Of a stretch of DNA of 64,000 bases, positions 2,921 to 51,396 are shown in pieces. A program made the translations under genes and the position numbers. Every line of letters begins with the position of its first letter. Position 1 is the stretch's first letter. The stretch spans positions 186,001 through 250,000 of the forward strand of contig NZ_JACHGR010000003.1 in the NCBI RefSeq assembly GCF_014202415.1. The letters are read 5' to 3'. This stretch comes from Tolumonas osonensis. Lineage in GTDB: Bacteria; Pseudomonadota; Gammaproteobacteria; Enterobacterales; Aeromonadaceae. The notes under the pieces were generated by a model, which searched no databases, was not told the DNA's origin, and worked only from the letters and a program-made list of their open reading frames with translations.

Positions 2921-2951
2921 AATTGATAATAGTTATCATTTGCAATATGAT
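2921..2951 (+). promoter_or_regulatory. Sigma70 promoter overlapped by a Fur-box-like operator
   Basis: A -35 box TTGATA (2923-2928) and a -10 box TATGAT (2946-2951) are separated by exactly 17 bases. The -35 and spacer contain the palindrome TGATAA-TAG-TTATCA (2924-2938), close to the core of the Fur consensus GATAATGATAATCATTATC. Fur bound here would block polymerase. The promoter points away from the YitT gene toward the end of rlmB and no protein gene follows, so its product is most simply the small RNA below. Confidence 0.6.
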
Positions 2952-2956
2952 TATCT

Positions 2957-3053
2957 ACATCGTTATGTTGAGCAATACTCTGTAGACCCACCCTTTTTCC
3001 TCCTCTGAAGGGTGACATTTTCGAGGCTGGCTAATCACCAGCCTCTTTTTTAT
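2957..3053 (+). ncRNA. Candidate Fur-repressed small RNA (RyhB-like in logic)
   Basis: Starting about 6 bases after the -10 box, a transcript of about 95 nt would end at a strong intrinsic terminator. Three stems are visible: a weak 5' pairing CTACA/TGTAG (2955-2959 with 2981-2985); a 7-bp stem CACCCTT/AAGGGTG (2989-2995 with 3008-3014) whose 12-base loop holds the pyrimidine run CCTCC; and the terminator at 3023-3051. The loop is complementary to Shine-Dalgarno sequences, and the U-rich tail would suit Hfq binding. Length and iron-type promoter resemble RyhB, but I do not see the conserved RyhB core, so homology is not claimed. No plausible protein is encoded in the interval. Confidence 0.5.
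3023..3051 (+). terminator. Intrinsic terminator of the candidate small RNA
   Basis: A perfect 8-bp stem GAGGCTGG/CCAGCCTC with loop CTAATCA is followed by six T on the plus strand only. On the minus strand, directly after rlmB, the stem is followed by GAAAAT rather than a U-run. So it serves plus-strand transcription even though no plus-strand protein gene precedes it. Confidence 0.8.
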
Positions 3054-3056
3054 CTG

Positions 3057-3794
3057 TCAGGAACGTCGTTGTCTTACGGCTTCAAACAGACAGATCCCGG
3101 TCGCGACTGATACGTTCAGACTGGAAACGGTGCCCGCCATCGGAATACTGATCAGCTCATCACAGTGCTCACGGGTCAGACGCCGCATGCCGTCGCCTTC
3201 TGCGCCCATCACCAGTGCCAGCGGACCGGTCAGTTTCGCCGCAAACACATCGTGCGTGGCTTCGCCGGCAGTGCCGACCACCCAGACACCGCGCTCTTTC
3301 AGCTCACGCAGAGTACGGGCGAGGTTTGTCACCTGAATAAACGGAACACTCTCCGCAGCACCACAGGCCACTTTACGCGCCGTACCGGTCAGACTGACCG
3401 ATTTGTCCCGCGGCACAATCAGCGCATGCACGCCCGCCGCATCGGCAGTACGCAGACAGGCGCCCAGATTATGCGGATCGGTCACTCCATCCAATACCAG
3501 AAAAAAGGGTGTCTGCTCTTTCTCCAGAATCTTGTCCAGATCAGACTCATCCAGTTTACGGCCTTCACGCACACGAGCGATGATCCCCTGATGAATGGCC
3601 CCTTCGGCTTTGTCATCCAGTGTCTTGCGCTGCACATACTGAATGCTGACGCCATACTGCTGCAGAATGGCCAACAGCGGTTGCAGACGATCATCATCTC
3701 GTCCTTTCAGTACCCATGCTTCCAGAAAACGTTCCGGAGCAACCTCCAGCAACGCTTTTACCGCATGGATCCCGTAAATTAATTCGCTACTCAT
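3057..3794 (-). CDS. rlmB: 23S rRNA (Gm2251) 2'-O-methyltransferase
   Basis: RlmB methylates the 2'-OH of G2251 in the ribosomal P-loop using S-adenosylmethionine. The 245-residue protein has the family's N-terminal substrate-binding domain (residues 1-75) and a SpoU/TrmH knotted methyltransferase domain with [13 protein letters not shown] in motif 1 and [15 protein letters not shown] at the C-terminus. Its ATG overlaps the stop of rnr in an ATGA arrangement, so translation is likely coupled. rnr-rlmB is the usual order in gammaproteobacteria. Confidence 0.97.
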
Positions 3795-29817: not shown

Positions 29818-29902
29818 GCGAAGGTGGCGGAATTGGTAGACGCGCTAGCTTCAGGTGTTAGTGCCTTCGGGTGTGAGGGTTCGAGTCCCTCCTTTCGCAC
29901 CA
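29818..29902 (+). tRNA. tRNA-Leu (anticodon CAG), copy 1
   Basis: An 85-base class II tRNA: acceptor stem GCGAAGG/CTTTCGC, D arm with GGAATTGGTAGAC, anticodon stem CTAGC/GTTAG enclosing loop TTCAGGT (anticodon CAG), a long variable arm TGCCTTCGGGTG, T arm GAGGGTTCGAGTCCCTC, discriminator A and encoded CCA. It reads CUG codons. Confidence 0.97.
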
Positions 29903-29942
29903 ATCATGCTGCTGACAGCATGTAAATACAGTCAGACACAGT

Positions 29943-30027
29943 GCGAGGGTGGCGGAATTGGTAGACGCGCTAGCTTCAGGTGTTAGTGCCTTCGGGTGTG
30001 AGGGTTCGAGTCCCTCCTCTCGCACCA
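29943..30027 (+). tRNA. tRNA-Leu (anticodon CAG), copy 2
   Basis: Identical to copy 1 except that acceptor-stem positions are changed to GCGAGGG/CTCTCGC, so base pairing is kept by compensating changes. The preceding spacer (40 bases) contains the stem CATGCTG/CAGCATG, a likely processing hairpin. Encoded CCA present. Confidence 0.97.
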
Positions 30028-30072
30028 AATCATGCTGCTGACAGCATGTAAATACAGTCAGAGACAATCAGT

Positions 30073-30157
30073 GCGAAGGTGGCGGAATTGGTAGACGCGC
30101 TAGCTTCAGGTGTTAGTGCCTTCGGGTGTGAGGGTTCGAGTCCCTCCTTTCGCACCA
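30073..30157 (+). tRNA. tRNA-Leu (anticodon CAG), copy 3
   Basis: Same sequence as copy 1. The 45-base spacer before it repeats the spacer between copies 1 and 2, including the CATGCTG/CAGCATG stem, showing that tRNA plus spacer was duplicated as a unit. Encoded CCA present. Confidence 0.97.
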
Positions 30158-50868: not shown

Positions 50869-51396
50869 ATGGAACTCGCGTTTTATGGATCGTCGGTAGT
50901 CGCGATTCTGGCTACCCTCGGGGTCATCAGCGGAACGAACCCGATGCATGCCCTGCTTTATCTGATCGTGTCACTGATTGCGGTCGGCATGATTTTCTTC
51001 AGCCTCGGCGCCAGTTTCGCCGGTGCCATGCAGGTGATTGTCTATGCCGGCGCCATCATGGTGCTGTTTGTATTCGTGGTCATGATGCTGAACCTGGGAA
51101 CCGCACAGGAACAGGAACGGCAGTGGCTGAGACCAATAACCTGGGTTGGCCCCCTGATCCTGAGTATCGGTCAGATGGCGGTTTTTTACGCCGCACTGCA
51201 CGGCATTCCCGGCATCATCACTGGCGAGCCGATCACTGCCAAACAGGTCGGCATCGCACTCTACGGCCCTTATGTGCTGGCCGTTGAACTGGCCTCCCTG
51301 CTGCTGCTGGCTGGTCTGGTTGCGGCTTATCACCTCGGCCGGGAAAGCCGCCGTGGTGACATCATCTCCACCCGCAATGAGGAGGATGATGCATGA
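50869..51396 (+). CDS. nuoJ: NADH-quinone oxidoreductase subunit J
   Basis: Membrane subunit with five helices, including the pi-bulge helix 3 involved in coupling ([26 protein letters not shown]). 175 residues from the ATG at 50869 ([10 protein letters not shown]), behind RBS AAGGAG; the frame extends upstream into nuoI without meaning. Overlaps nuoK by 4 bases. Confidence 0.95.

Follow-up and report, generated by a model that had tools for sequence, protein, structure and literature searches.

A candidate Fur-controlled small RNA with an anti-Shine-Dalgarno loop, confined to Tolumonas within its family and probably an analogue of RyhB

Analysis of a 64,000-nucleotide stretch of the Tolumonas osonensis genome (hereafter the window) revealed a candidate small RNA (sRNA) unit of an inferred ~94 nt at positions 2958-3051 of the plus strand, in the yitT/rlmB intergenic region of this member of the Aeromonadaceae. 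We hold with high confidence, judging from sequence and its conservation, that this sRNA gene with its Fur box is real and bound to the genus. As far as its sequence tells, it is a new lineage-specific sequence family within a known functional class, whose hallmarks it carries in the form of a Fur box at the promoter and a short non-coding unit with an intrinsic terminator. The RNA would probably be a Fur-repressed, trans-acting, iron-sparing analogue of RyhB, acting by occlusion of the sodB and frdA ribosome-binding sites.

The unit is preceded on the plus strand by a -35 hexamer (TTGATA, 2923-2928) and a -10 hexamer (TATGAT, 2946-2951) with the 17-nt spacing that the original prediction had placed there. 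The promoter match is by itself not significant (1 found versus 1.4 expected in shuffles), and the -10 hexamer is poorly kept within the genus. The Fur-like palindrome proposed over the -35 hexamer and spacer was also located: the Fur box TGATAATAGTTATCA (2924-2938) has a 7-1-7 layout, overlaps the -35 hexamer and differs from TGATAATNATTATCA at one position. The 5' end of the putative transcript is placed from the -10 hexamer and its 3' end from the U-run. A conserved 5' element (CTCTGTAGA, 2978-2986) precedes a predicted hairpin, whose arms (CACCCTTT, 2989-2996, and GAAGGGTG, 3007-3014) display the loop UUCCUCCUCU. This anti-Shine-Dalgarno loop (TTCCTCCTCT, 2997-3006) contains most of the pairing seed CCUCCUCUG (2999-3007). 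The stem announced at 2989-3014 was present, with a predicted loop of 10 nt, slightly shorter than described. An intrinsic terminator follows as the stem-loop GAGGCTGG...CCAGCCTC (3023-3045) with a U-run (3046-3051) that, as anticipated, occurs on the plus strand only. None of 200 dinucleotide shuffles matched the stability of the 2957-3053 fold (z -3.35). On the minus strand, the unit is flanked by the divergent yitT (2136-2783, start uncertain), encoding a YitT membrane protein, and by the convergent rlmB (3057-3794), encoding a 23S rRNA methyltransferase. Elsewhere in the window, three tandem tRNA genes with near-equal scores and starts 125-130 bases apart were observed at 29818-30154.

A lack of conservation of the promoter and hairpins had been named beforehand as grounds for refuting the candidate. 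The outcome does not refute it: 10 of 11 Tolumonas genomes keep the Fur box, hairpin and terminator at the yitT-rlmB junction. When 61 genomes were searched at the DNA level, nine of the ten further Tolumonas genomes matched the unit with 81-89% identity; the rlmB gene of the window is 95-98% identical to rlmB in nine of the ten searched. A covariance model built from the unit found one strong copy each (98-120 bits) in 10 of the 11 Tolumonas genomes, and yitT and rlmB flank the sRNA in all ten loci. The exception, G008, is an assembly that is 70% complete and whose best rlmB match is a 33% paralogue; the junction is therefore probably missing from this assembly, which would account for the miss. 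Sharing among other Aeromonadales, which had been expected, did not materialize: within the family, the new model detected the sRNA only in Tolumonas, with no comparable match in 64 other Aeromonadaceae genomes (best, 34 bits). Among 394 genomes sampled evenly across the order, the top match outside Tolumonas reached 41.9 bits and corresponded to a terminator after a cold-shock-like gene. The weak outside matches, inspected by eye on one strand each at six family loci and all 11 listed order loci (L170-L173 left out), were gene ends with terminators or stems, and no sRNA with a Fur box was seen among them. Downstream of rlmB, one Aeromonas and one g5 genome carry other genes.

In the alignment of the ten Tolumonas sequences, 13 of 16 Fur box columns are invariant (mean pairwise identity, 93%), and the loop and the 3' arm of the hairpin reach mean identities of 92% and 97%, respectively. 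The 56 bases beside the Fur box on the yitT side are only 51% identical, and the spacer/-10 stretch only 67%. The motif CCUCCUC is invariant and 95-99% unpaired in the predicted folds of all ten sequences, and the eight terminator pairs never vary. Among the stem pair cells, 159 of 160 hold standard pairs; as only one pair varies, covariation neither supports nor opposes the structure.

Further insight into the Fur box came from the genome as a whole, in which the Fur pattern identified 36 sites at ≤2 mismatches against 7 for a reversed control pattern. The box of the candidate is among eight sites with ≤1 mismatch. Beside the other seven lie, among others, two genes for TonB-dependent receptors, one for a solute-binding protein and a gpmA-like gene, and for three of the seven the neighbours look, by eye, unrelated to iron. 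A FecCD permease gene and a binding-protein-like gene without a Pfam match have a site with 2 mismatches between them. The surplus over the control, together with these neighbour genes, suggests that the pattern seems to mark the Fur regulon of Tolumonas osonensis. The only perfect Fur box of the genome lies just before the gpmA-like gene (G000:C2:254864), and a box with 2 mismatches lies just before a dsbB-like gene (G000:C2:410798). In the half of the genome that was read, no second unit of Fur box and terminator was found beyond candidates preceding open reading frames of 85 and 300 codons, and the fur gene was not seen. The genome contains hfq, and its presence and the terminator U-run are consistent with an Hfq-assisted RNA.

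No Rfam family matches the candidate at threshold. The RyhB covariance model (RF00057), a search that the original prediction had itself suggested, gave no match at E≤10 in the window stretch, which agrees with its view that the known RyhB core is not visible and that the family may be new. In a genome screen that used stricter filters and in which the E. coli control passed, RyhB exceeded the Rfam cut-off in every genome of two sister genera (11 of g2 and 11 of g4, which is Aeromonas). It did so in none of the 11 Tolumonas genomes (best, 25.9 bits versus a cut-off of 55), nor in the single g3 genome or the three g5 genomes. The g3 genome (G012) and the g5 genomes (G014, G017 and G020), which represent two other lineages of Aeromonadaceae, have neither RyhB over the cut-off nor the candidate sRNA, three of these four assemblies being incomplete (94, 71 and 65%); the absence of RyhB alone therefore does not demand a substitute. 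RyhB is flanked by a yhhQ-like and an rraA-like gene in two Aeromonas loci, and the rraA-like gene of Tolumonas has a zapB-like gene behind it and no RyhB at its side (names assigned by eye). The candidate is not at the place of RyhB in the sister genera (beside the yhhQ-like gene, with the rraA-like gene in Aeromonas) and sits at yitT-rlmB. RyhB membership was thus rejected on the missing match, the absence over the cut-off in all 11 Tolumonas genomes and the different locus. PrrF (RF00444) membership was likewise rejected: its gathering score is 90, and with the promoter included the match reaches 23.8 bits here (E 0.04) and 25.8 bits in one of four relatives; without the Fur-box stretch it vanishes at E≤10. 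The transcript by itself gave a GlmZ-like match (18.3 bits against a gathering score of 60, E 0.0058), which is a gapped partial alignment that does not recur at E≤10 in one relative tried likewise, and was also rejected.

Among known iron-sparing RNAs, the candidate resembles RyhB of E. coli, Vibrio and Aeromonas in its length of about 90 nt, the Fur box at its promoter and the terminator U-run, and differs from it in the lack of a model match or RyhB core, in its locus and in pairing through a CU-rich anti-Shine-Dalgarno loop. In E. coli, sodB and frd are RyhB targets. PrrF of Pseudomonas shares the Fur box and a similar length, and its model consensus also has CUCCUC; the low score separates the two. 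FsrA of Bacillus and IsrR of Staphylococcus, set apart here by their descriptions and the Rfam scan, are Fur-controlled iron-sparing RNAs with C-rich single strands, and FsrA is described as binding Shine-Dalgarno sequences through a C-rich motif (PMC9410917). The CCUCCUC of the candidate, open in all ten predicted folds, may pair with Shine-Dalgarno sequences in a similar way. In contrast, FsrA and IsrR belong to Firmicutes, IsrR has three C-rich regions where the candidate has one CU-rich loop, and FsrA needs other chaperones. HrrF of the Pasteurellaceae is told apart by its description, which places it at a pmbA-hpt locus. BrrF of Burkholderia is presented as iron-responsive, unlike known Fur-regulated sRNAs and with predicted sodB and TCA-cycle targets; it differs from the candidate in having no Fur box directly upstream, and of its predicted interactions just 17% extend to the Shine-Dalgarno region (PMC7377471). 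In the accessible parts of the sources, PMC3521468 included, a literature search on Tolumonas with RyhB or small RNA found no sRNA of the genus. A wider search found no such RNA for Aeromonadaceae among the matches listed, with most subscription papers outside its scope.

The proposal that the loop is complementary to ribosome-binding sites fits both sodB and frdA, whose products were confirmed as FrdA and SodB[Fe] by NCBIfam. The frdA leader string CAGAGGAGGCCTAAGTG, found by searching for the 9-base complement of the loop before start codons, occurs in 10 of 11 Tolumonas genomes: nine leaders were read with the gene, the tenth (G001) was recognized by the identical string on a short contig, and the eleventh genome had no gene start. 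At the same place, four of four Aeromonas genomes read have TAAGGAGG, and three g5 genomes have AAGGAGG or TAGGAGG. For sodB, chosen before the analysis as a textbook RyhB target, the leader carries GAGGAGA in all nine Tolumonas genomes (of 11) where the gene was found, and TGGAG in all 11 other Aeromonadaceae read (four g2, one g3, four g4 and two g5). Predicted loop-sodB energies range from -8.9 to -10.1 kcal/mol in Tolumonas versus 0 to -5.6 kcal/mol in other family members. In this leader comparison, 28 of 30 loci yielded a sodB start, both misses lying outside the family; for frdA, the start was missed in G006 and set wrongly in the two g2 genomes, and the frdA leaders come from a separate reading. 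Among the family members read, complementarity of the frdA and sodB ribosome-binding sites to the loop is specific to Tolumonas.

These two genes also ranked high in predicted pairing against 1242 background genes, which were called in 1.664 Mb of genome by a simple custom caller; repeated leaders were left out, as were genes whose start lay within 60 bases of the end of a stretch. With opening costs included, loop pairing placed frdA at rank 3 and sodB at rank 6, with predicted pairings of 9 and 6 bp, respectively; the frdA rank is not independent, because the gene was found by searching with the loop. Pairing of the whole RNA gave ranks of 6 and 11, and since it is dominated by the variable 5' end, the loop segment was used for ranking. 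GAGGAG itself occurs in 29 of 412 GGAG-type sites and in the ribosome-binding window of 32 of the 1242 sampled genes.

In the suggested target search with the loop, sodB and frdA rank high, most other iron genes looked at rank low, and iron genes overall show no clear enrichment. Before start codons in the 11 Tolumonas genomes, the loop complement occurred at 44 sites versus 46 for the reversed pattern (30 of the 44 were fetched and the remainder judged by string). The frdA string was present in 10 genomes, motY-like genes carried the complement in 5, and the complement lay on the opposite strand of the sRNA itself in 7; that strand apart, no other such string occurred in more than five genomes. 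Sorting of the 30 best loop targets by eye from Pfam matches identified four iron-cofactor or iron-complex genes (sodB, frdA, ilvD and nuoM), with HemX, an Nramp transporter and a Blh-like protein as borderline cases. The 30 controls, chosen from below rank 100 for their strong ribosome-binding sites, held two iron genes (Fe-ADH and IscA-like), so that the difference, 4 of 30 versus 2 of 30, is too small to count. Nine motif-defined iron genes ranked 6, 28, 261, 272, 356, 514, 660, 948 and 968 of 1242 for loop pairing, and iscR, cydA, iscA-like and formate-dehydrogenase-like genes spanned ranks 150 to 742 (iscR 665, cydA 285, two iscA-like genes 150 and 467). In a coarser test with shuffled loops, frdA and sodB both ranked as high in 7 of 200 shuffles, frdA alone in 7 and sodB alone in 36; against the 250 background genes of this test, sodB came no higher than the top 4.4%. 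Shuffled loops also rank the two genes high because CU-rich loops generally fit ribosome-binding sites. Given these shuffle results and the lack of a clear enrichment, the iron-sparing claim rests on two targets and their evolution and not on a regulon. The broader idea that targets are generally iron proteins, raised by the GAGGAGG-preceded frdA, nuoK, pyruvate:flavodoxin oxidoreductase-like, nifX-like and luxS genes, was not borne out: the Pfam comparison showed no clear enrichment, and with structure and background considered, nuoK, the oxidoreductase gene and luxS rank only 49, 133 and 116 of 321.

Several individual genes were recorded in the course of this search. A nifX-like gene (G000:C1:109738-109756), which has a Nitro_FeMo-Co domain and scores below the NCBIfam nifX cut-off, has the entire complement of the loop, CAGAGGAGG, in its ribosome-binding site. 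It would stand second among the 321 genes of the first background, and nitrogenase assembly would be a target with a high demand for iron. Within the window, a nuoK-like gene has GAGGAGG (51379-51391), and a nuoM-like gene, rank 17 of 1242 for loop pairing, has CTAGGAGG before its start (53547). The best loop-pairing gene of the sample encodes a metallo-beta-lactamase-fold protein (L343:18389-19249), whose nearest model, with a score under the cut-off, is that of the sulfur dioxygenase Blh. The sulfur dioxygenase Blh family consists of iron enzymes.

Three alternative readings of the locus itself were weighed. The divergent yitT begins at a distance of roughly 110-200 nt from the Fur box in each of the ten loci (starts uncertain), and if the box served this gene, the plus-strand transcript would be incidental; we consider this highly improbable, because the box overlaps the plus-strand -35 hexamer and conservation continues through the hairpin and the plus-strand terminator, falling away on the yitT side. 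A small-protein or leader-peptide gene deserves practically no credence: four of the ten sequences hold a 6-codon MLSNTL-like frame, which is absent or shifted in the other six, and the loop is what is conserved. No open reading frame is conserved in the ten transcripts, in line with the protein-free stretch originally described; the longest closed frame spans 0 to 14 codons, and one-base indels fall between and inside conserved parts, so the small-protein reading was rejected. Descent from a diverged RyhB or PrrF instead of a new gene would explain the similar size, the Fur box over the promoter and the terminator, and PrrF is the best-scoring Rfam match once the promoter is included. The dependence of that match on the Fur-box stretch, its distance from the gathering score, the missing RyhB match and the differing loci make such descent very unlikely.

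A Fur-controlled sRNA whose main targets are other than sodB and frdA must also be weighed. Such an RNA could act on other GAGGAG leaders or through the 5' element CUCUGUAGA, by which gltB reaches rank 12 of 1242 in whole-RNA pairing. This notion draws support from several non-iron genes that equal sodB in score, from the lack of a clear enrichment of iron genes, from a cobI-like gene with the loop complement, and from a motY-like gene that carries it in five species (by eye, the fifth by string only). However, the 5' element is mostly paired in nine of the ten predicted folds, which makes it uncertain as a second pairing site, and sodB and frdA are complementary to the loop in every readable Tolumonas leader and not in the other family members read. 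We therefore regard other main targets as unlikely and favour the RyhB analogue acting on sodB and frdA.

In the mechanism that we propose for this analogue, Fur would leave the box over the -35 hexamer when iron is scarce, so that the ~94-nt RNA would be made. The hairpin would keep CCUCCUCU open in the loop. This motif is a copy of the ribosome's own anti-Shine-Dalgarno motif, and, held open on a stem, its simplest action would be to cover a ribosome-binding site. With the assistance of Hfq, the loop may pair with the Shine-Dalgarno sequences of iron-enzyme mRNAs, at least those of frdA (the fumarate reductase operon) and sodB (iron superoxide dismutase), and by covering the ribosome-binding site would block translation. 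Such an RNA would give a Gram-negative example of Shine-Dalgarno occlusion as described for FsrA.

Fur-repressed iron-sparing RNAs arose repeatedly from unrelated sequences, and here both sides of such a change may be visible, namely an RNA restricted to one genus and target sites unlike those in close relatives carrying RyhB. More tentatively, and as a possibility that we would not yet put on the favoured side, Tolumonas may have lost RyhB and rebuilt iron-sparing control on an unrelated RNA that mimics the anti-Shine-Dalgarno sequence, with the sodB (TGGAGA to GAGGAGA) and frdA (AAGGAGG to CAGAGGAGG) sites rewritten to suit. If this regulatory swap is true, both of its halves are legible in the sequence, and since the RNA and the altered target sites can both be read, the transfer of a regulon between sRNAs would become directly testable in this genus.
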